Source of the DNA: a virus
Reading direction: 5' to 3' (one strand)
DNA length: 22,926 nt
IMG/VR virus record: IMGVR_UViG_3300017991_004506
Span: 1 to 22,926 of that record
Part shown: in pieces, positions 1,646 to 12,788 of the stretch
How positions within the stretch are numbered: the stretch's first letter is position 1
Layout: the number at the start of each line of letters is the position of its first letter
The notes under the pieces: model-generated
What the model was told of the DNA's origin: nothing
The model's database searches: none
Seen by the model: the letters and a program-made list of their open reading frames with translations, nothing else
Program-made: the position numbers and the translations under genes

Positions 1646-1665
1646 TGATTATTTAGAGATTGACA

Positions 1666-2361
1666 ATGGATAGACTTAATGTACAAGCAATATTTAAGAG
1701 TATAGATGGAGAGGTGAATGGTTTTAGAGGAGCTGGTGAATTAACAACTTTCATACGTTTGAAAGGCTGTAATTTGCAGTGTCACTTCTGTGATACTCCT
1801 TATGCTCAAGATTCTAAACCTGAGAATTGGATGACGGTAGATGAAATTCTTGAGAAGGTGGATGTTGGTACCAAAGTTACTATATCCGGTGGTGAGCCAC
1901 TTTGTCAAGATATAGGTCCTCTTCTCGTAAGATTGCTAGAACAGAGCAGGTTCATTTCAGTTGAGACGAATGGATCTCTCTTAGACCGCTCTTCGCTTAC
2001 TGCTGTGCGTACTTCTAAGCGTACACGGAATTGGGAGAATGTTCGTTGGATAGTAGATTATAAGCTTCCTTCATCAGGGATGGAGAGGTTCATGGTTTTT
2101 GCAGCATTTAATGCTCTTCAGAAGATTGATGTCATAAAGTTTGTTATTGCAAATGAAATAGATTACCAGCGTGCTTTAGAAATTAGGAGATTATTTCCAA
2201 GTTGGAGAGCTAGAAAAGTATTTAGCCCAGTGATAAGTAAGTTGGACACTAATTGGCCCACTGAATTAGCTGAGATGATGATACGGGATAATTTGTATGA
2301 TGTGCAGTATTCTCTTCAAATACATAAAGTGATTTGGCCTAATGCTAGACAGGAGAGGTGA
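1666..2361 (+). CDS. queE: 7-carboxy-7-deazaguanine synthase QueE (radical SAM)
   Basis: QueE converts 6-carboxytetrahydropterin to 7-carboxy-7-deazaguanine, the ring-contraction step of preQ0 synthesis. The N-terminus has the family's 'QAIFKSIDGEVNG' opening. The [4Fe-4S] radical SAM cluster is C35-x3-C39-x2-C42, the spacing typical of radical SAM enzymes, followed by D-T-P-Y-A. The SAM-binding motif GGEP is at 75-78, 'VETNGS' follows, and a 'DYKLPSSG' segment matches the substrate-binding region. Length (231 aa) is normal. I use ATG 1666 rather than TTG 1660 because an AGAG ribosome-binding site lies just upstream and family similarity begins here. Its product would go to QueC (4370), and its substrate would come from QueD (22577). 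Confidence 0.93.
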   Translation: MDRLNVQAIFKSIDGEVNGFRGAGELTTFIRLKGCNLQCHFCDTPYAQDSKPENWMTVDEILEKVDVGTKVTISGGEPLCQDIGPLLVRLLEQSRFISVETNGSLLDRSSLTAVRTSKRTRNWENVRWIVDYKLPSSGMERFMVFAAFNALQKIDVIKFVIANEIDYQRALEIRRLFPSWRARKVFSPVISKLDTNWPTELAEMMIRDNLYDVQYSLQIHKVIWPNARQER

Positions 2362-2680: not shown

Positions 2681-3697
2681 ATGAAACAAGATTATCTTTT
2701 GAGTTGTATTTATCTAACTAGAGAATGCCCAATGCACTGTGAATATTGTGCTATTAGGAACTCAAAACTGTCCCAACGAGAATTGACAGCCTCAGAATGG
2801 AAGAGGGCCTTTAATATACTTAAGGATTTAAACTGTGAATTTAATCTAATTCTTGGTAATGAAACAATGATGTTGGAGGGTGGCCTTGTTGAGATTGTCA
2901 AACATTTATATGAACAGAAGATTGATTATGCTCTTTATAGTACTTCCCCAACTGAACTATATAGTAAGTTAAAAGAACCATTAATTGAGGCAGGATTAAA
3001 AAATCTATCCTCTGGTTTTGATACTTTGAAAAGAAATGACAGTATTGGGGTGAAAAGTAGGAGAGGTCTTGAGGGTATGATTGAGATGAAGAAAAGAATT
3101 GAGACTTTAGATACCCAAGGGACAATAACTCTTTCAAGTATAAATTTGGATGAGGTGGTGGATCTGCTGAGAATATTGACAAAACACAACATTTGGGGGG
3201 CGGTGAATTCTTTACACTGGGACATTGACGGAGGATATGATTTCTTCCCTTCGAAGGAGCATTTGGGAGATCTAGTAATTACTGATGAAAAGAAGTTTCA
3301 GGCATTGTGTAAGAAGCTAAAGGAACTAACCACTAATGGAGAAATAATGGTTCAGAATCCCCCAGAGTATTTTGATGCTTTGGCAAAGTATGGTTTGAAT
3401 ATGGGCTGGCATTGTACTCAACCTTATATTGTCACTATCGATGCTGATGGAAGTTTGAGATTATGCGCTTATCGTAGAGGGAATAAGATTACAGAATTTT
3501 CCATATTTGATTTGGTAGATGAAAAGAAATTTGAGGAGTACAAAAAGATTTGGAGAGAAGAAAGTCGTGAGTGTCCGGGCTGTTTTTGGAGTTATTGGTG
3601 GATGGCAGAAAACTTTATCTTTACCAACCAGAGGGAGTATGGAACTAAAGTTCTGCAGAGTCATTTTTCAAAGTATTATAGAGAGGAGAAACTATGA
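2681..3697 (+). CDS. Radical SAM/SPASM-domain enzyme of the modification cassette
   Basis: This 338-residue enzyme has the radical SAM cluster motif C16-x3-C20-x2-C23 near the N-terminus and a C-terminal auxiliary-cluster region. C245, C262 (in 'LRLCAY') and C298-x2-C301 ('CPGCFW') match a SPASM or twitch-type domain. Such enzymes use a 5'-deoxyadenosyl radical and an extra Fe-S cluster for difficult C-H chemistry, often on peptides, and sometimes on sugars or cofactors. It is not a second QueE because the core and length differ. GAGGAGA lies just upstream of ATG 2681. Its stop overlaps the SDR start by 4 bases (ATGA at 3694), which couples the two. No peptide substrate gene is evident nearby, so a base or sugar substrate is my inference. 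Confidence 0.85.
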   Translation: MKQDYLLSCIYLTRECPMHCEYCAIRNSKLSQRELTASEWKRAFNILKDLNCEFNLILGNETMMLEGGLVEIVKHLYEQKIDYALYSTSPTELYSKLKEPLIEAGLKNLSSGFDTLKRNDSIGVKSRRGLEGMIEMKKRIETLDTQGTITLSSINLDEVVDLLRILTKHNIWGAVNSLHWDIDGGYDFFPSKEHLGDLVITDEKKFQALCKKLKELTTNGEIMVQNPPEYFDALAKYGLNMGWHCTQPYIVTIDADGSLRLCAYRRGNKITEFSIFDLVDEKKFEEYKKIWREESRECPGCFWSYWWMAENFIFTNQREYGTKVLQSHFSKYYREEKL

Positions 3698-4353
3698 GCA
3701 CAATAGCTTTAACTGGAACTACATCAGGAATAGGCAAAGCAATCGTGGAGAAATTTCGTGAAGAGGAGTGGGAGGTTATTTCCTTAACTAGAAGCATTCT
3801 TGATGTTAGGGATGTGGAGAAGATTGCAGCCTTGGATCTTCCCAAGTTAGATGTCTTTATCAACAATGCTGGGATTATGCTTCTTAGGGACTTTCCCGAT
3901 ACTTCATTGGAGGATTGGGAAAATACAATAAATACTAATTTGCGAGGGGTGTTTTTCCTATGTCAGAGGGTGATTCCATTGATAAAGAATGGGGGTCATT
4001 TGATTAACATTAGCAGCATTGCAGGTACCTTCCCAGAAAGAGAATTCGTGGCTTACAATGTTTCTAAGGCTGGGGTAACAATGTTGACACAATGTTTGTC
4101 AAAAAGATATGGTGATAAAATCTTTGTAAATTCTATTTCCCCGGGATTCGTCAACACAAACTTGACTACAGAGGTTCCTGGGGTACCTTCTGAACCCACT
4201 CCGCAGCATCTGATTGATGATATACCAATGCAGCGACAGGCTGAACCAGAAGAAGTGGCAAATCTCGTGTGGTATGTGGTACATGATAAGTATTTCAATG
4301 GATCTGACATCAAGTATGATGGTGGCTTGTCAACAAAGTATTTTGGTCCGTAA
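3694..4353 (+). CDS. Short-chain dehydrogenase/reductase (SDR)
   Basis: This is a complete classical SDR of 219 residues with an NAD(P)-binding Rossmann fold. TGTTSGIG at 7-14 binds the nucleotide and NNAG lies at 57-60. N82, S108, Y121 and K125 form the catalytic tetrad with normal spacing. A 'SPGFVNT' segment follows the active site and the end resembles the usual 'G.di.vDGG' terminus. It is therefore probably an active alcohol dehydrogenase or ketoreductase. Its start overlaps the radical SAM gene by 4 bases, suggesting the two act in sequence. SDRs are uncommon in phage genomes; here it most likely oxidises or reduces an intermediate of the modified base or its sugar. The substrate cannot be read from sequence. 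Confidence 0.9.
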   Translation: MSTIALTGTTSGIGKAIVEKFREEEWEVISLTRSILDVRDVEKIAALDLPKLDVFINNAGIMLLRDFPDTSLEDWENTINTNLRGVFFLCQRVIPLIKNGGHLINISSIAGTFPEREFVAYNVSKAGVTMLTQCLSKRYGDKIFVNSISPGFVNTNLTTEVPGVPSEPTPQHLIDDIPMQRQAEPEEVANLVWYVVHDKYFNGSDIKYDGGLSTKYFGP

Positions 4354-4369: not shown

Positions 4370-4960
4370 ATGTTATCAGGTTTGGTTTTGTTAAGTGGTG
4401 GGATGGACAGTTCGACTTTGTTGTATTATGTCATAGAAACTTTGAAATATGATAAGGTGGAAGCTATTGTATTTGATTACGGTCAGCGACATAGAATAGA
4501 AATATCCTATGCTCAAACAATAGCTGAGAGATTAGGAATATCTTATGAAATAGTTAAGGTTGATATAGCTCAATTTGGTGGCAGTTCTTTGATTTCCGAG
4601 GATAGAAATCTTTCTGTGGTGGTGCCGGGAAGAAATGCCATTTTTCTAAGTCTCGCAGCCGCTTATGCAAAGACACGAGAATTAGAGGATGTTTTCTTTG
4701 GCCCAACTTTAGAAGACTATAGCGGTTTTCCGGACTGTCGGGATAGTTTTGTTAGATTGATGAATCGAGCATTAGCAATAGGAATTGGTATTAGAGGAAT
4801 TCATGCTCCTTTTATCCATTTAGGAAAAAAGGAAGTTGTTGCTCTAGGTAAGGAACTGGGTGTACCATATGATCTTACCTGGAGTTGTTATTTCCCAACG
4901 GATAACAATAAACCATGTGGTCGATGCCACGCGTGTATGGAAAGGGAACTGGTACTATGA
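4370..4960 (+). CDS. queC: 7-cyano-7-deazaguanine synthase QueC
   Basis: QueC uses ATP and ammonia to turn 7-carboxy-7-deazaguanine into the nitrile preQ0. The PP-loop ATP-binding motif SGGMDS is at 9-14, and 'FDYGQRHRIE' matches the family. A structural zinc site is formed by C173, C183, C186 and C189 at the C-terminus. At 196 residues it is slightly shorter than bacterial QueC (about 220-230). It lacks the glutamine amidotransferase domain of the Gat-QueC fusions found in archaeosine-type phages. ATG 4370 has a GGGAGG ribosome-binding site upstream; an in-frame open stretch from 4214 overlaps the SDR gene and is not used. The next gene begins within its stop codon (ATGA). Confidence 0.93.
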   Translation: MLSGLVLLSGGMDSSTLLYYVIETLKYDKVEAIVFDYGQRHRIEISYAQTIAERLGISYEIVKVDIAQFGGSSLISEDRNLSVVVPGRNAIFLSLAAAYAKTRELEDVFFGPTLEDYSGFPDCRDSFVRLMNRALAIGIGIRGIHAPFIHLGKKEVVALGKELGVPYDLTWSCYFPTDNNKPCGRCHACMERELVL

Positions 4961-5325
4961 GTAAATCAAATGAACCAAATACAAGATTAGTAGGAAAAGA
5001 GTACTCTCCATTGATTATCAGAAGATATAGTATGCCTGTGCTTCATTTTGTTGCTTTGATTACAGATGATAACTTGGATGATTTAGATGATACTGTGAAT
5101 GGATTTTTTGGAGAAAATCCAATACCAAATAGCATTCAAGGAGTAAGAAATTCAGCTGGAGCATTGTCAGAGACTCTTTTTAGAAAGTATTCAAAGACAG
5201 AGGGTGTAGCTGTTATCATTCAAGCAGACAAAATGACAATCAGTTCACTTGCTGGGGATTTTATGAATCATGTTTCTTGCCGTATTGAACTTTACAATCT
5301 GCTAACTTTTGCAACGGGGGTGTAG
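4957..5325 (+). CDS. Unknown cassette protein translationally coupled to queC
   Basis: This 122-residue protein is not recognised. ATG 4957 overlaps the queC stop by 4 bases and its own stop abuts the next ATG, so it is embedded in the modification operon. It has no membrane segment and only one cysteine, near the C-terminus in 'NHVSC'. A stretch 'EGVAVIIQADKM' at about 80-91 faintly resembles the C-terminal core of GTP cyclohydrolase I (FolE). FolE is the one preQ0 enzyme missing here, but the catalytic CxxH zinc site is absent, so I do not call it FolE. It may be a tunnelling-fold relative, a partner of QueC, or something new. Confidence 0.75.
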   Translation: MSKSNEPNTRLVGKEYSPLIIRRYSMPVLHFVALITDDNLDDLDDTVNGFFGENPIPNSIQGVRNSAGALSETLFRKYSKTEGVAVIIQADKMTISSLAGDFMNHVSCRIELYNLLTFATGV

Positions 5326-5817
5326 ATGAATATAATTATAGCTCCACATCCAGATGATGAACTAATTGGGATGTATTCTCTGATTAGGGGGAGAGAAATT
5401 AATAGTGTTATCTACATTGATCCTGCCCCTGGAAGATTTGAACGAAGTCAATTAGTAGGTAAACATTTTGGCTTTCGTCCATATATATTGAACTTTGGAG
5501 AACTCCAAAACTGTTTAAAGAAAGCTAGAGAACGATTATCTAGCAGCACTATTTATGTACCGGATTCTTTTGATAAGCATCCTTTACATAAAGCAGTTAA
5601 TCTTATAGGACGAATGAGTGGCTGTAGATTGGGTTATTATACTACAGATATGAACACTGGATATGTTAGAGAATTAAGTGAGAAGGAGAAGAAAGAAAAG
5701 AAAGAGGCTCTTGATAAATTCTATCCCGATCAATCTTCTCTCTGGGGGAATAATTGGAAATACTTTTTATTTGAAGGAGTTGTTTATGATACATATACTC
5801 CCTCAATTACCGTGTAA
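5326..5817 (+). CDS. PIG-L/LmbE-type N-deacetylase
   Basis: This 163-residue protein belongs to the PIG-L/LmbE family of zinc-dependent enzymes that remove the N-acetyl group from GlcNAc-containing molecules (for example BshB and MshB). The defining motif P-H8-P-D-D11-E12 opens the protein, and a second H85-P-L-H88 motif stands where the family has HPDH. H8, D11 and H88 would bind zinc and D10 would be the base. It is shorter than typical members (about 200-280), lacking part of the C-terminal half. It starts directly after the stop of the upstream gene, and its 3' end overlaps the glycosyltransferase gene by 32 bases. That pairing suggests a sugar is transferred and then deacetylated. Confidence 0.85.
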   Translation: MNIIIAPHPDDELIGMYSLIRGREINSVIYIDPAPGRFERSQLVGKHFGFRPYILNFGELQNCLKKARERLSSSTIYVPDSFDKHPLHKAVNLIGRMSGCRLGYYTTDMNTGYVRELSEKEKKEKKEALDKFYPDQSSLWGNNWKYFLFEGVVYDTYTPSITV

Positions 5818-6733
5818 AAATAGATACACTGAGGATTGGATTACTATATGGTCTCGAGAGTTAAGGAACTTAGATGTACAATTTAAGGTGTTAGGTGGCA
5901 AAAAACCTGTCGTCGTAACAAAATATTTTACTGATCCCTTGAAGGCATTGGGTTATGAAAGTGAGCAAATCAGTGTTCTTGCCGAAGCTAATCCTGAAAG
6001 GATATTCTGCCTGGATATTGAGTTTCCAGGATTGATATCTTCCGCGATCCAGGCTTTAAGGTTGGTGAATCCGGATTTGAAAGCCCACGGTTATCTACAT
6101 GCGGGTTGCTGGTGCAATGGGGACATATGGGGCGAGACGAAAGGTAGGCAACATTTAGATAGGATGATATTTGATACTTTTGATAAGATTTTCGTTGCTA
6201 CTAACTATCACAAGAAAAAAATTGAGAAGTACTTTAATCAAGTGTTTGATAATATAGAAGTAGTCGGTTTTCCTTTCTACAAAAAAGATGTATTGACGTA
6301 TGCCAAACCCTTGCCGTTTGAAAAGAAAGATTCAATACTTATCAGTGGAAGGATGGAACAAAGTAATCAGGATTTTGTTTCGAAAATTAAGGAAAATTTC
6401 AAAGATGAAAAGGTTATTGCTGTCAACACTAATAGTAGAAGGGAGTATTATGAACTTCTCAATCGAGGAAGAGTTGTCATATCCTTGAAGACTGAGGAAA
6501 CATTTGGAATAGGGCAGTTAGAGGCATATGTTTTGGGAGGAATTCCTTTGTGTCCATGCGCTTATGCTTATCCAGAAGTGATAGGGGATGAACGTTTGTT
6601 ATATTCGAGTGAGAAGGATTTGTTAGAGAAATTAGGATACCTGGTTGAGCTAAAGGAGAATCTTTTTCAGATAGATGTAGAAAAGTATGAAGAAACCATT
6701 CCAGTTTGTTTGTATTCTTGTTTTGAGGAATAG
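5786..6733 (+). CDS. GT4-like (GT-B fold) glycosyltransferase
   Basis: This 315-residue protein has the two-domain GT-B layout. The N-terminal half is variable, with 'GYLHAGCWCNGD' at about 102-113 and 'DKIFVATNYHKKKIEKYF' leading into the domain linker. 'VVGFPF' at 159-164 and the nucleotide-sugar half follow, with 'ILISGRMEQSNQDF' and the GT4 EX7E motif (E238-x7-E246 in 'EETFGIGQLEAYVLGG'). 'AYPEVIG' follows. It should transfer a sugar from a nucleotide donor with retention of configuration. ATG 5786 has a GAAGGAGT site at about 5772-5779 inside the PIG-L gene. It lies between the deacetylase and DpdA, so the acceptor is probably the deazaguanine or the modified DNA. Host surface glycan modification is an alternative. 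Confidence 0.82.
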   Translation: MIHILPQLPCKNRYTEDWITIWSRELRNLDVQFKVLGGKKPVVVTKYFTDPLKALGYESEQISVLAEANPERIFCLDIEFPGLISSAIQALRLVNPDLKAHGYLHAGCWCNGDIWGETKGRQHLDRMIFDTFDKIFVATNYHKKKIEKYFNQVFDNIEVVGFPFYKKDVLTYAKPLPFEKKDSILISGRMEQSNQDFVSKIKENFKDEKVIAVNTNSRREYYELLNRGRVVISLKTEETFGIGQLEAYVLGGIPLCPCAYAYPEVIGDERLLYSSEKDLLEKLGYLVELKENLFQIDVEKYEETIPVCLYSCFEE

Positions 6734-6735
6734 AG

Positions 6736-7671
6736 ATGTCATTAGAACGAATGTACTTAGCTAGATTTCTTACTGCTTCAAAGAATCACCATGCTGATGA
6801 TCTTCTTGAGATTGGTCGAGAAGGTAGAATTCTTGCTTTGGAATCATTTTGGACCAAGAATGATTTGGTCAAAATCTTGAAGGATTACCCAGAAATTAAG
6901 ATCTTCTTAGATTCAGGTGCTTACACTCTGGAGAGTCAAGAAGTTGAGGATACTCAAAAGTATTTGGATGATTACATTGATTTCATTCTTGAATATGAGG
7001 ATAGACTATTGGTGTATGCTAATCTTGATAATATTCGTAATGTTGAGAATAGTTGGCAAAACCAGAAGTATATGGAAGAAAGAGGAACTAAACCCATGCC
7101 GGTGTATCACTATGAAGAAGATTTTAAATGGTTAGAAAAATGTGTTAATGAATATGAATATGTAGGTGTGGGGGGAATAGCAAAGGGGGCATCCATAGAA
7201 AGTGATAGAGTATTGTTTGATAGGATTTTTGATTACATTTATAAGAGAAATCTATCTGTTAAGATCCACGCTTTCGGTATGGCAAAGGTTAGATTCTTAG
7301 TTAGATATCCTTGGTACAGTGTTGATTCAACCACTTGGTTACAACATGCAAACTATGGAAGAATTATGATTCCCAGCTATAATGCAATGAAACAAAAATT
7401 TGAGTATTCGTATACTCCTTTTGTAATATCAGTATCCAATATTTCATTGGTTAAAACAGGCACCAGTCATTCACACTACACACTTGTTTTCCCTCCTCGG
7501 ATAGTTGAAAGAATTGAGGAATACTTTGCGATGATAGGTATTGATTCTGAGAAACTTAAAACAGAGCAGTCAGAAAGACTGAGAGCTAATGCTTATTACT
7601 ATGAAGAATTTTTGAAGAATAAGAGTATTTGTCAATCTACAGAATACAAAGGAAATAAATTATTCTTTTAG
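6736..7671 (+). CDS. dpdA: Phage DpdA: 7-deazaguanine DNA transglycosylase (TGT-like)
   Basis: DpdA exchanges guanine in DNA for a 7-deazaguanine base, as tRNA-guanine transglycosylase does in tRNA. The 311 residues keep TGT active-site landmarks: L-D59-S-G-A-Y (TGT: DSGGF), 'YANLDN' with D98, 'GVGGIAKG' where TGT has its GG loop, and H178-A-F-G. S-V-D197-S-T-T-W places D197 where TGT has its nucleophilic aspartate. The CxCxxC zinc cluster of tRNA-acting TGTs is not seen. Three bases separate it from the glycosyltransferase gene. With QueD, QueE and QueC present, DNA containing a preQ0-derived base is the expected result. Family assignment is firm; the exact base inserted is unknown. Confidence 0.9.
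   Translation: MSLERMYLARFLTASKNHHADDLLEIGREGRILALESFWTKNDLVKILKDYPEIKIFLDSGAYTLESQEVEDTQKYLDDYIDFILEYEDRLLVYANLDNIRNVENSWQNQKYMEERGTKPMPVYHYEEDFKWLEKCVNEYEYVGVGGIAKGASIESDRVLFDRIFDYIYKRNLSVKIHAFGMAKVRFLVRYPWYSVDSTTWLQHANYGRIMIPSYNAMKQKFEYSYTPFVISVSNISLVKTGTSHSHYTLVFPPRIVERIEEYFAMIGIDSEKLKTEQSERLRANAYYYEEFLKNKSICQSTEYKGNKLFF
7648..7661 (+). promoter_or_regulatory. Ribosome-binding site and likely AUU start of the methyltransferase
   Basis: AAAGGAAA at 7648-7655 lies about 5 bases before ATT 7659, the first codon of the open methyltransferase frame after TAA 7656-7658. No ATG, GTG, TTG or CTG occurs in this frame before ATG 7710, yet the codons between encode the conserved 'NRIIHGDAVEEM' lead-in typical of these enzymes. 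The GAGGAG directly touching ATG 7710 is too close to serve it. An AUU start, as in infC, is inferred; ATT 7662 is equally possible. Confidence 0.5.
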
Positions 7672-8399
7672 AAACGAATAGAATTATACACGGCGATGCA
7701 GTCGAGGAGATGGGAAAGTTTCTAGGAGGAAGTGTTTCGCTTATTCTTACAGATCCTCCATATTTCACAGCCTGCAGGGAGCTTCTTCCTGATAAGGTGC
7801 AAACGCTGGATGAGTATATGTATTGGTATGAAGAATGGTTGAAAGAAGCATCTCGTGTTCTTACAGAGAGTGGAAGTATTTATGTATTCATTCCTCCTCT
7901 TGAATTTGCAGAGATACATTTACTTATTAAGAAGTATTTTTATCAGAAACAAATAATTTCATGGGTGAAACCAAATGTAATGATTCGTCAACCAACAGCT
8001 AGAAATTATCTTCCAAAGGTGGAGTTCATCGGATTTTACGTTAAGAATGAAAAGAAATATATTTGGAATAGGCTTGCTAAAAAGTATGGATTGCAAAAAT
8101 CCTGCAACTTTGATATTGAAGCTACAATATATAGACACACAAGAGAAGGAACAGATCATTCTACACAGAAGCCATTGAGATTAGTAGGAAAATTTGTGTA
8201 TGCTTCATCCAATGAAGGAGATGTAGTTTTAGATCCTTTCTGTGGATCTGGAACTACGTGTGTTGCAGCTAAAGCATTGAGTAGAAGATTCATAGGAGTA
8301 GATATAGATTCTAAGTATTGTAGAATATCTAATTCTAGAATTGGAAATGTTACTTGTAGGGACATATTTGAAAGTAAACCTAAGGATGCTCTTTTTTGA
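7659..8399 (+). CDS. DNA methyltransferase (beta-class, N6-adenine or N4-cytosine)
   Basis: This SAM-dependent amino-methyltransferase targets DNA. Catalytic motif IV D-P-P-Y comes first (D32 counting from ATT 7659). Motif I D-P-F-C-G-S-G-T-T is near the C-terminus, with 'HSTQKP' between. That order (IV before I) marks the beta class. The length is 246 residues from 7659, or 229 from ATG 7710. The family's lead-in 'NRIIHGD' is encoded upstream of 7710, so I use the upstream ATT start, which overlaps the dpdA end by 13 bases. No restriction endonuclease is next to it, so it probably protects phage DNA or regulates. A DPPY tetrad alone does not settle adenine versus cytosine. Confidence 0.85.
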   Translation: MILLETNRIIHGDAVEEMGKFLGGSVSLILTDPPYFTACRELLPDKVQTLDEYMYWYEEWLKEASRVLTESGSIYVFIPPLEFAEIHLLIKKYFYQKQIISWVKPNVMIRQPTARNYLPKVEFIGFYVKNEKKYIWNRLAKKYGLQKSCNFDIEATIYRHTREGTDHSTQKPLRLVGKFVYASSNEGDVVLDPFCGSGTTCVAAKALSRRFIGVDIDSKYCRISNSRIGNVTCRDIFESKPKDALF

Positions 8400-9463: not shown

Positions 9464-12010
9464 ATGAGCAAACAACAAGTATTTTTCTTGGATAAATGGG
9501 AAATTTTTCAAAAGGAGCATCCAGAGAAATTCTCTAAAAAAGGATCTTCTAGAAAAAAATCTCCCCCTAAAGTGTATAATTGTGAAACTTGTGGATTAAA
9601 AGAAAGGTGCAGATCTCCTCATATTAAGAAATATGGGAAAGGGAAGAAAGGGATTCTTTTCGTGGGCCAATGTCCAGGATATGCAGAGGATAAAGTTGGG
9701 ATTCCATTTGTAGGAGCTGCTGGCGGTCTTCTTAAAAGAACATGTAATCTTTTAGATATTAATCTTGACGAAGACTGTGTAAGAACTAATATTGTTTCCT
9801 GCTACCCTGGAAAAGATGGTGGTGGCAAGGATAAAGATCCTGCTGACCATCAAATTAAGTGTTGTTCTTCAAATCTTGAGAAGGATATTCAAGAAGTTCA
9901 ACCTAAACTGATAGTTTGTTTTGGAACTCTGGCCATAAAAGCTGTTTTGCAAACAAGAAGCTCTATTGAATTTTCAGCTAGTATGGTTCATGGAAAGGTT
10001 TTTCCTTATCATAAATACAATTGCTGGGTAGGTTGTTCATACCATCCAGCTTTCTTTTTACACAGAAAAAATTCAGATCAACATCCTGATGATGAAGCGA
10101 TCTTGGCTTATGATCTTGCTAATGTGTTGAGTCGTTTGGATGATCCTCTTCCTCAGCCTCTCACCGCAGAAGGGAATGAATGCATTACAGATCCTGATGA
10201 GGTTATCAGTATGTTGGAGGATTTTTGTGATTCCGAAAAGCCAGTAGCTTTTGATTATGAAACTAATCATATGGTCTCACCATACCCTGAGGGGGCTAGG
10301 ATTAAAACAGTTGCTCTTACTAATGATGTGGATTCAGCAATATTTATTCCTTTAGATCTCAAAGATCAAACTACAAATGAAAAGATTTTCAATTTAGAAG
10401 AGCAAGCAATGATTGTGGTAGCTCTTAGGAAGTTTCTTCAAAGTGATGCTCCTAAGGTTGTACAAAACTATAACATGGAGGAATTGTGGGGAAGGAATCT
10501 TCTCCTTCAGCCGATGAATAATTTTATTCATGACACTATGGTTACTGCTCATGTTCTAGATTGCCATCCAAGAATGACGGGTCTAGGATTTCAAGCCTTT
10601 GAGATGACGGGACATGATTATAAGGGAATGGTTGATCTAGAGGATATAGATAGTAGACCTCTCAAGGATGTATGTAATTATAATAGTTGGGATGCTCGGT
10701 ATACTTTGATGTCTTACTATAGACAGAAATCTAGATTAGAAGGAAATTTGATAAAGTTTAATGATTTTTTTACTTCATCTATTCCAGTTCTTGCAAATCT
10801 TACAGACAGAGGAATAAAGATAGATTTAAATGAATTGGATAATCTTAATACTATGTTTAGCTCTGAGATGGAAGAGTGTAAGAATCAGATTCTTAGTACT
10901 GAAGCTGCTAAGAAGTTTGAAGAAGAGAAAGGAAAGGAACTAGAAATCACTTCGCCGACTCAGTTAGGGCAAGTAATCTATGATATTTGCAAAGTGGAGA
11001 AAACTAGAAAGAGATTGACTCCTACCAGGAAGGGGGCTACGAATGAATTAGTGTTTCAAGAGATACTGAATACTACAGAAGATCCTGAGGTGAAAAAAAT
11101 CATTTCATCTCTCTTCACCTACCGAAAAAATACAAAAGTAATTGAGAGAGTTGCTGAATATAGAAGATTAGTAGACTCTGAAGGATTCATTCATCCTACA
11201 TATAATCTTAATATAGCCACTTCTTTTAGATCTTCCTCTGATGGTCCTAATATACAGAATGTTTTCATACATGATGAAGAACAGAAGAAATTTAGAAGAT
11301 GTATTGTTCCTCGCCCTGGGCATATTTTTCTTGAGCCCGATTATGATGCTCTTGAGGTTCGTGTTATGGCAATGGCTTCAAGAGATCCAGTATTGACCCA
11401 ACAAATCATTGATGGAGTTGATCCTCACAGAATATGGGCAAGTAGAATCTTTCAGGTACCTCAAGATCAGATAACTACTTCACAAAGATACAAAGGAAAG
11501 AATGGATTTGTTTTCCCACGTTTCTACGGATCTGTAGAAGAATCTATCATTAGATATTTCCCAGAGGTGCCAAAAGATCATATGTTGAAGGTCTGCCGAG
11601 AATTTTGGGAGGAATATCATTATGTCAAAGAATGGCAACTTCGTACTATCAGTGAGTATAGAAAGAAAGGTTATGTAGAGCTAATGACTGGAGCAAGACG
11701 CCCTGGCCCTCTCTCTATAAACAAACTTTATAATACTCCAATTCAAGGGCCAGCATATCATCTGCTTCAAGATGCCCTTAATAAGAATGAAGAAGCCTTA
11801 CTAAAATCTAAAACTATAACTTGTCAAGTGGCAGAAATACATGATGATATTCTTCTAGATACTCATCCAGATGAGGCAGAAGAAGTTATTGAGTTGGTAG
11901 AAAAGATAATGTGTTCGAAACGATTTGATTGGCAAAGAAATGTTCCTTTGTCTGTTTCGTGGGATGTTGGAATAAGAAATTGGTATGAGATGGAGCCATT
12001 GAAAGTATAG
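9464..12010 (+). CDS. Uracil-DNA glycosylase / family A DNA polymerase fusion with 3'-5' exonuclease
   Basis: This is the replicative polymerase (848 aa). Residues about 36-215 are a family 4-like uracil-DNA glycosylase domain. C40-x2-C43 and C134-x17-C152 are likely Fe-S ligands, motif 1 is G68-Q-C-P-G72, and H194-P-A-F is the second motif. The usual Glu of motif 1 (GEAPG) is Gln. Residues about 255-430 are a DnaQ-like proofreading exonuclease with D264-Y-E266 and Y406-x3-D410. The ExoII Asp position is E339. Residues about 450-848 are a Pol I palm/fingers/thumb: motif A D626-Y-D, motif B R675-x3-K679-N and motif C H793-D794-D795. There is no 5'-3' exonuclease. UDG-like domains on phage polymerases are known in some large phages. 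Confidence 0.92.
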   Translation: MSKQQVFFLDKWEIFQKEHPEKFSKKGSSRKKSPPKVYNCETCGLKERCRSPHIKKYGKGKKGILFVGQCPGYAEDKVGIPFVGAAGGLLKRTCNLLDINLDEDCVRTNIVSCYPGKDGGGKDKDPADHQIKCCSSNLEKDIQEVQPKLIVCFGTLAIKAVLQTRSSIEFSASMVHGKVFPYHKYNCWVGCSYHPAFFLHRKNSDQHPDDEAILAYDLANVLSRLDDPLPQPLTAEGNECITDPDEVISMLEDFCDSEKPVAFDYETNHMVSPYPEGARIKTVALTNDVDSAIFIPLDLKDQTTNEKIFNLEEQAMIVVALRKFLQSDAPKVVQNYNMEELWGRNLLLQPMNNFIHDTMVTAHVLDCHPRMTGLGFQAFEMTGHDYKGMVDLEDIDSRPLKDVCNYNSWDARYTLMSYYRQKSRLEGNLIKFNDFFTSSIPVLANLTDRGIKIDLNELDNLNTMFSSEMEECKNQILSTEAAKKFEEEKGKELEITSPTQLGQVIYDICKVEKTRKRLTPTRKGATNELVFQEILNTTEDPEVKKIISSLFTYRKNTKVIERVAEYRRLVDSEGFIHPTYNLNIATSFRSSSDGPNIQNVFIHDEEQKKFRRCIVPRPGHIFLEPDYDALEVRVMAMASRDPVLTQQIIDGVDPHRIWASRIFQVPQDQITTSQRYKGKNGFVFPRFYGSVEESIIRYFPEVPKDHMLKVCREFWEEYHYVKEWQLRTISEYRKKGYVELMTGARRPGPLSINKLYNTPIQGPAYHLLQDALNKNEEALLKSKTITCQVAEIHDDILLDTHPDEAEEVIELVEKIMCSKRFDWQRNVPLSVSWDVGIRNWYEMEPLKV

Positions 12011-12011
12011 A

Positions 12012-12788
12012 GTGTTTGATTTCAACACACATTTAAATACTATTATACAGTGTGATAGTAGAAATCTGCTGCCAGAAATTCCAACTGAATCAGTTGATTT
12101 GATTGTTGCAGACCCTCCTTATGGAATAGATTACAAAGAGTGGGACAGGTTTAATAATTTCCATGAGTTCTGTGAATGCTGGGTAAGTGAGTGCTTTAGA
12201 ATACTGAAGTCTAATGGTTCATTCTATTCTTTTATGGGATGGTCAAATGTTGCTTTGTTTAAGTTATTGTTAGATAAGTACGGATACATTAGAAATTGGA
12301 TAACTTGGGAAAGAACTAAGGGGCGGGGTTCTTCAATGAATTTCAAATCAATGAAAGAGGAGATATTATACTATACTAAATCTAAGAAAGATTTTGTATT
12401 CAATGAGCAAAAAATGTTGAAGAAACATGTAATTCCATATACAAAGAATGGAAAGCCTCGTGGATGGTTTACAAATGAAGAAGGAGTTAAGTGTAGATGG
12501 ACTGGGGTGGGTAATGTTTGGCATTATATTGTTCCTTTTTTTGCAATGAAGGAATGGATAGGTCATCCTTCTCAGAAGCCGGAGATGATGATAGAGAGAA
12601 TTATTCTTACATCAAGCAACAAAGGGGATATCGTGTTAGATCCTTTTAGTGGTTCAGGCACCACAGCGGTTGTAAGTCGGAGATTAAACAGAAGATTCTT
12701 ATGTATTGAGAAAAATAAAGAGTACTATGATAAATCTGTGGAACGTTTGAATAAGGAGACTCAAAGTCAAAAAGATAGGATTTTTTGA
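12012..12788 (+). CDS. Second DNA methyltransferase (beta-class)
   Basis: This 258-residue SAM-dependent DNA amino-methyltransferase has motif IV D34-P-P-Y followed by G-I-D-Y, 'HPSQKP' at about 190-195, and motif I D210-P-F-S-G-S-G-T-T. 'NTIIQCDSRNLLPEIP' is the canonical lead-in. Its low similarity to the protein at 7659 suggests a different recognition sequence. The start is GTG 12012, one base after the polymerase stop, without a good Shine-Dalgarno, so coupling to the polymerase gene is likely. No cognate nuclease is present. N6-adenine specificity is more likely than N4-cytosine but is not proven. Confidence 0.88.
   Translation: MFDFNTHLNTIIQCDSRNLLPEIPTESVDLIVADPPYGIDYKEWDRFNNFHEFCECWVSECFRILKSNGSFYSFMGWSNVALFKLLLDKYGYIRNWITWERTKGRGSSMNFKSMKEEILYYTKSKKDFVFNEQKMLKKHVIPYTKNGKPRGWFTNEEGVKCRWTGVGNVWHYIVPFFAMKEWIGHPSQKPEMMIERIILTSSNKGDIVLDPFSGSGTTAVVSRRLNRRFLCIEKNKEYYDKSVERLNKETQSQKDRIF

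Follow-up and report, generated by a model that had tools for sequence, protein, structure and literature searches.

A glycosyltransferase and deacetylase pair in viral deazaguanine cassettes suggests a sugar-decorated guanine in DNA

Why would a virus place a glycosyltransferase and a PIG-L-type deacetylase side by side among genes for a modified guanine? In bacillithiol and mycothiol synthesis, a GT4 enzyme adds GlcNAc and a PIG-L enzyme deacetylates it, and an earlier sequence-only reading of this DNA proposed that a similar pair here installs glucosamine on a deazaguanine. We followed this up with gene calls and profile searches on the ORFs of a 22,926-nt IMG/VR virus fragment, IMGVR_UViG_3300017991_004506 (the window, meaning the whole stretch that was analysed). 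Its relevant features are the following.

1660..2361, + strand: QueE, 7-carboxy-7-deazaguanine synthase (TIGR03963, E = 3.5e-46; phrog_2076, QueE-like)
2681..3697, + strand: second radical SAM enzyme, MoaA/PqqE-like (PF04055, E = 1.6e-9; same position in most relatives)
3694..4353, + strand: short-chain dehydrogenase, SDR (PF13561, E = 1.6e-41; optional, present in some relatives and absent from others)
4370..4960, + strand: QueC, 7-cyano-7-deazaguanine synthase (TIGR00364, E = 7.9e-56, above cut-off; C-terminal zinc cysteines intact)
4957..5325, + strand: GTP cyclohydrolase I-related T-fold protein lacking the catalytic zinc site (structure model and profile comparison)
5326..5817, + strand: PIG-L-type metal-dependent de-N-acetylase, short form, 163 aa (PF02585, E = 3.5e-6)
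5773..5779, + strand: GAAGGAG, ribosome-binding sequence of the glycosyltransferase (GT), inside the PIG-L gene (sequence)
5786..5817, + strand: 32-base overlap of the PIG-L and GT genes (ORF coordinates)
5786..6733, + strand: GT-B, GT4-like glycosyltransferase, 315 aa (AF2 model; phrog_4356, E = 4.8e-7; EX7E motif at E238/E246)
6736..7671, + strand: DpdA-type DNA guanine transglycosylase (phrog_887, queuine tRNA-ribosyltransferase, E = 1.7e-50; tblastn to 203 phage records)
22559..22924, + strand: QueD, 6-carboxytetrahydropterin synthase, truncated by the window end (TIGR03367, E = 9.2e-22)

The gene order is thus QueE, an unknown ORF, radical SAM, SDR, QueC, T-fold protein, PIG-L, GT and DpdA, followed 3' by a DNA methyltransferase, a sliding clamp and a DNA polymerase, with QueD far downstream. 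FolE is absent from the 22.9-kb fragment; it is found in most relatives' cassettes. The best phage homologues of the window DpdA are annotated as queuine tRNA-ribosyltransferase. The 32-base overlap between the deacetylase and GT ORFs (5326-5817 and 5786-6733) is exactly as the sequence-only reading gave it. The same reading placed the pair between QueC and DpdA, which is right as to position but passes over the gene at 4957-5325 that separates QueC from PIG-L. The GT begins with ATG, and the ribosome-binding sequence ahead of it is encoded by a conserved FEG motif at the C-terminal end of PIG-L. This motif is retained in four loci where the GT lies farther off (L023, L026, L027 and L031), and it is therefore conserved for the PIG-L protein itself.

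Several neighboring genes have features of their own. The radical SAM protein at 2681-3697 has extra C-terminal cysteines and is a constant member of the cassette; in L028 and L033 a methyltransferase gene has been added after it. Two N6/N4-type DNA methyltransferases (7677-8399 and 12012-12788) flank the clamp and polymerase genes near the cassette. The DNA polymerase A protein (9464-12010) seems, by reading, to carry an N-terminal uracil-DNA-glycosylase-like domain, and in relatives similar genes follow the clamp.

We measured how closely the pair is tied to deazaguanine genes by scanning with PIG-L or GT as query, never with the que or dpdA genes. The single window PIG-L sequence gave no matches as a query, so that an alignment was required, and a 20-row GT alignment that was too divergent for scanning was replaced by two sub-alignments, one for each of two clades. 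For DpdA, phrog_887 was more sensitive than a diverse DpdA alignment (A3). The PIG-L-only scan of viral contigs found 16 loci, all 16 with a GT nearby (from overlapping to 2.1 kb away); phrog_887 DpdA was present in 14 of these records and QueC in 12, the exceptions being the short or edge-cut L002, L023 and L031, plus the X1-type L026. In the GT-only scans, que, FolE or dpdA genes lay no more than about 7 kb away in 34 of 35 loci of the first clade and in 79 of 80 loci of the second, for which the best 80 of 318 matching loci were used, near-copies included, and where the sole failure is a 1.8-kb scrap. Both clades together give 113 of 115 loci (the second clade again being the best 80 of 318), a count whose members are not independent because the loci share ancestry. 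By comparison, generic bacterial PIG-L loci, our control, had any que-type match in 2 of 38. GT identities as low as about 21-25%, combined with differing gene orders, show that the linkage has been maintained, and because the arrangement is conserved at 21-30% protein identity, chance is excluded as an explanation for the placement of the pair. The sequence-only reading had said that it would fail if homologues mostly occurred without dpdA or que genes, or if the enzymes served cell-wall or lipid glycans; the 113 of 115 GT loci (second clade the best 80 of 318) and the 14 of 16 PIG-L records contradict this. We regard it as nearly certain that the PIG-L/GT pair belongs to the deazaguanine pathway.

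Cultured phages show the association in several arrangements. In Xanthomonas phage X1 the genes for PIG-L, GT, DpdA2 and QueE are consecutive, and in Acidovorax phage ACP17 and Pseudomonas phage PA5oct the GT gene is immediately 3' of a DpdA gene. Phage Phosso has its GT near QueD-like, FolE and QueE genes, with DpdA located elsewhere. Synechococcus phage BUCT-ZZ01 (L008, 4007-8164) carries two different GT-B genes, one on either side of DpdA2, a pairing that might build a disaccharide. In PhiXhv a distant PIG-L/GT pair lies 3' of a fusion of a glutamine amidotransferase with QueC; the full row in Xanthomonas phage PhiXhv-15 (L009, 406-8833) is a large GNAT-domain protein, the amidotransferase-QueC fusion, PIG-L, GT and a GFO/IDH oxidoreductase, which may point to an acylated form of the sugar. 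The que cluster of Ps15, a relative of Menderavirus IME-SM1, includes a gene for myo-inositol phosphate synthase (PMC9025141); a search for PIG-L in the IME-SM1 genome found none. A PIG-L scan of 84,980 prokaryote genomes returned 41 loci. Among these the GT adjoins only the full-length family members, of which there are three; their MAGs bear the labels Thermoplasmatales, Halanaerobiales and Woesearchaeota, and one of the three, L035, contains the entire cassette. At one more locus, L044, the GT match is weak (E = 2e-6). The loci L034, L035 and L052, from archaeal and Halanaerobiales genome bins, look viral (polymerase plus cassette genes), and their bin placement may be a hint of the host or a binning error.

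The PIG-L protein, which begins MNIIIAPHPDDELIG, scores 28.0 bits against Pfam PF02585, with a gathering cut-off of 28.2 (E = 3.5e-6), and the same model matches 6 of its 16 relatives at E <= 0.01. The description of an HPDDE-type deacetylase nevertheless holds: the HxDD motif and the second zinc-binding histidine are present, and in the alignment H8, D10, D11, H85 and H88 show no variation among the 16 relatives. A profile of these 16 members matches diacetylchitobiose deacetylases (E = 5.6e-5) with both metal motifs aligned, so that its nearest solved relatives are enzymes that deacetylate GlcNAc-containing sugars.

The GT falls below the cut-off of Pfam Glycos_transf_1 (E = 2.7e-4), a model that matches 10 of 20 GT relatives (best E = 7.8e-13), and PHROG assigns it to the glycosyltransferases (phrog_4356, E = 4.8e-7). 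Its alignment-based AlphaFold model (pLDDT 90.7) matches GT-B/GT4 structures over its full length with Z of 20-22.7. BshA is the best PDB match (Z 22.7, 293 residues, rmsd 3.2), followed within about 2 Z units by sucrose-phosphate synthase, a tetrahydrobiopterin glucosyltransferase (Z 21.2), PimA (Z 21.1) and MshA (Z 20.6); Foldseek likewise ranks MshA and BshA near the top. The EX7E motif noticed earlier is present as E238 and E246, its second glutamate being aspartate in about half of the relatives in the alignment. A lysine near R189 that other GT members keep is missing from the window's clade, a placement that depends on the alignment. The earlier likening of the GT to BshA was correct in that BshA comes first by structure, but it is a near-tie with other GT4 enzymes, and membership is unsupported by curated models. 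Because the near-tie includes glucosyltransferases, the modelled fold would also allow another donor sugar.

We rejected direct membership in BshA/BshB or MshA/MshB, the curated models having no match to either window protein. At E <= 10 the NCBIfam BshA and MshA models do not match the window GT, nor do the BshB and MshB models match the window PIG-L; one GT relative matches BshA at E = 0.063, far under that model's cut-off. It is thus reasonable to say that the pair works like these enzymes, and unsupported to say that it is a member of their families.

The reading that we favor, with modest confidence, is that the pair is a tailoring module of phage 7-deazaguanine DNA modification, which places an (N-acetyl)hexosamine on deazaguanine in DNA that PIG-L then de-acetylates. 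The enzyme families, the catalytic residues, the operon and the near-obligatory linkage of GT to que/dpdA across very divergent viruses support it. From these we infer a donor sugar, an acceptor atom, an order of steps, a location in DNA and a biological effect, as follows. QueD, QueE and QueC, with FolE as in relatives, would make the deazaguanine base, and DpdA would exchange guanine in DNA for it, before or after tailoring. The GT-B enzyme would attach an N-acetylhexosamine, most likely from UDP-GlcNAc, to the C7 substituent, where the handle would probably derive from a carboxy, amide or nitrile carbon that the additional radical SAM and T-fold proteins activate. Deacetylation by PIG-L would then yield a hexosamine whose amine is free and normally protonated. 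Such a base, bulky and with the positive charge this amine may give its sugar, could shield the DNA against restriction enzymes and Cas nucleases. In T4-like phages, sugar-bearing DNA bases protect from nucleases, and the C7 groups of the phage deazaguanines known so far are small (nitrile, amide, amidine, aminomethyl). Protection by the proposed base is extrapolated from these sugar-bearing bases and from phage deazaguanines generally (PMC6884629). Individual steps have precedents: phage DpdA inserts preQ0 into DNA (PMC6884629), HuiG attaches GlcNAc to a base derived from preQ0 (PMC7439116), and tRNA queuosine carries mannose or galactose (PMC12518689).

The distribution of PIG-L among the GT clades fits this order of action. 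The window's clade in a tree built from 84 GT proteins comprises 34 rows (support 100/99), of which two lack PIG-L, both from contigs that begin at the GT. The large ACP17/PA5oct clade has PIG-L in 0 of 80 loci (the best 80 of 318), and none was found in its complete phage genomes. A small clade apart from these, made up of X1 and L026, does have PIG-L. PIG-L is therefore optional across the GT family, and deacetylation a variant rather than a core step. With the GT as the common element and deacetylation as an add-on, the pattern fits PIG-L acting on the product of the GT.

PIG-L also travels with the QueC family. PF06508 matched in 21 of 25 PIG-L-bearing records, and 0 of 11 GT-only records gave a full-length match over the cut-off (Fisher p = 2e-6, for samples that are not independent); the 11 GT-only records keep FolE/QueD/QueE genes. 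The GT-only group as a whole (L005, L006, L007, L008, L013 and L110-L189, the last range being the best 80 of 318) has FolE, QueD-like, QueE and DpdA genes and lacks both QueC and PIG-L. Since this clade is without QueC, the inserted base there may be 7-carboxy-7-deazaguanine, or host preQ0 may be used. QueC itself varies at its C-terminus. The window protein has the tail CYFPTDNNKPCGRCHAC with its zinc cysteines intact, and the cysteine cluster is also kept in L001, L020, L024 and L106. In most relatives QueC ends in ...SGYG and the zinc cysteine cluster is lost (L021, L022, L025, L027-L030, L032, L033, L079, L092, L101 and L107); the comparison covers 26 entries, including contigs counted twice, with L086 assigned to neither group. 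To judge from these tails, the loss suggests an altered chemistry.

These observations make one alternative serious, although we consider it unlikely: GT and PIG-L could build a free amino-sugar whose amine a QueC-family ligase links through an amide bond to the carboxylate of 7-carboxy-7-deazaguanine, with insertion of the conjugate by DpdA as the last step. The co-occurrence of PIG-L with the QueC family would be expected, as would the missing zinc tail in most relatives and the joining of PIG-L and GT to the amidotransferase-QueC fusion in PhiXhv, and Cap9/QatC, relatives of QueC, are described as ligating deazaguanine to protein amines (PMC13329287). However, in the window itself QueC keeps its zinc tail and scores above the cut-off of the canonical model, X1 has PIG-L but no clear QueC, and cells have free glucosamine phosphate available without any GT.

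What the sugar would be attached to depends on the remaining cassette proteins. A QueF profile run over the cassettes found no convincing QueF: matches were sub-threshold, those that could be placed coincide with related FolE genes, and a single match just over the cut-off lies in a Woesearchaeota genome bin. We accordingly rejected preQ1 made by QueF as the acceptor. No amidotransferase was seen, and neither ArcS nor a Gat domain was found in the window cassette. With QueC present and QueF absent, plain preQ0, a nitrile, offers a sugar no nucleophile, and a further step or a base other than preQ0 is thus needed.

A candidate for that step is the protein at 4957-5325, which is a FolE-derived T-fold without the zinc site. 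Its AF2 model (pLDDT 83.4) matches GTP cyclohydrolase I with Z 13.0 over 97 residues (rmsd 2.0) and the QueF-like archaeosine synthase with Z 9.8, and hhalign relates its family to the cassette FolE (E = 5.8e-7, 92%). The zinc motif CEHH of GTP cyclohydrolase I is found in 0 of 23 family members; of the H.C...RG motif, present in 71 of 72 FolE proteins, a single one of these 23 members has the RGV core. The protein is conserved in 13 aligned cassettes, is among the best conserved of the window's clade, and adjoins PIG-L in nearly every compact cassette of that clade (L020-L033, L035 and L052). It could be the missing enzyme, or a partner that prepares the base. A fuller version of the favored reading, which we put forward tentatively as somewhat short of an even chance, is an amino-sugar-bearing 7-deazaguanine in DNA in which the zinc-less T-fold, the radical SAM enzyme and the remodelled QueC make the attachment, possibly an amide, instead of a route through QueF; phages with the GT alone would then carry an acetylated or plain hexose form.

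PIG-L superfamily enzymes act on varied substrates. The deacetylase might take an N-acyl group from a site other than a sugar, such as a formyl or acetyl on the deazaguanine side chain, while the GT adds a plain hexose. That the window PIG-L is short and matches no specific family would agree with this, as would a GT fold equally near glucosyltransferases. But PIG-L stays near the GT even in dispersed cassettes and occurs in certain GT clades only, as one would expect of an enzyme whose substrate is the GT product, and the nearest solved relatives of its profile deacetylate GlcNAc-containing sugars, so that we judge this slightly less probable again than a QueC-family ligase.

We think it quite improbable that the cassette yields a modified tRNA or a free glycosylated nucleoside rather than modified DNA. 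TGT-type enzymes classically act on tRNA, and the antimetabolite huimycin is a GlcNAc-bearing preQ0 nucleoside (PMC7439116); here, however, the exchange enzyme falls in the phage DpdA family, whose tested members act on DNA (PMC6884629), and sliding clamp and DNA polymerase genes directly follow the cassette. Modification of cell-envelope glycans (for superinfection exclusion or O-antigen change) by a pair that sits in the cassette by chance is hardly credible and was rejected: phage GT4 enzymes often act on surface glycans, and in phage DLP3 a PIG-L, sugar-nucleotide enzymes and a BshA-like GT were interpreted as glycan modification (PMC7326821), but que, FolE or dpdA genes accompany 113 of 115 GT loci (second clade the best 80 of 318) and 14 of 16 PIG-L records, and dpdA is adjacent in different gene orders.

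The presence of this pair in the cassettes of a large group of uncultivated viruses suggests a sugar-decorated guanine in DNA. If this is true, deazaguanines with a sugar or amino-sugar would make up a chemical class new among DNA bases, likely a strong shield against restriction and CRISPR, and their enzymes would be new tools for DNA labelling. Since cultured phages (X1, ACP17, PA5oct relatives, Phosso and BUCT-ZZ01) also carry GTs of this family, the idea can be tested by mass spectrometry: we predict a shift of +203 or +162 in GT-only phages and of +161 in phages with GT and PIG-L. The pairing of PIG-L with the QueC family and the zinc-less relative of FolE represent further unexplained enzymology.

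To our knowledge, no glycosylated purine-type base has been known in any DNA. A search of the open-access literature, which covers the key papers incompletely, found no report of a glycosylated deazaguanine in DNA, and novelty is to that extent not fully established. New here are the zinc-less FolE-derived T-fold in the cassette, the loss of the zinc tail in most relatives' QueC, and the co-occurrence of PIG-L with the QueC family.

Among known systems, the window most resembles the phage 7-deazaguanine modifications of 9g, CAjan and nt-1 (DpdA with FolE, QueD, QueE and QueC), with which it shares QueD, QueE and QueC alongside a DpdA homologue within a single phage cassette; it differs in adding the GT4-like GT, PIG-L, a second radical SAM enzyme and the zinc-less T-fold protein. 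With the bacillithiol and mycothiol pairs BshA/BshB and MshA/MshB it has in common a GT4-fold enzyme followed by a PIG-L deacetylase; unlike them it has a short PIG-L, no thiol-pathway genes and a location in a deazaguanine cassette. The huimycin cluster also encodes a GT, HuiG, with FolE, QueD, QueE and QueC (PMC7439116), but huimycin, compared here by function, is a free nucleoside antibiotic of an actinomycete, and its cluster lacks the DpdA and the deacetylase that the window has. Animal queuosine likewise bears a sugar on a 7-deazaguanine side chain (PMC12518689), though in tRNA and on a cyclopentene diol, whereas DNA is proposed here. Finally, the glucosylated 5-hydroxymethylcytosine of T4 is, like the base proposed here, a sugar-bearing DNA base made by phage GTs, but on a pyrimidine with a hydroxymethyl handle, whereas the window would act on a purine analogue and has a deacetylase.
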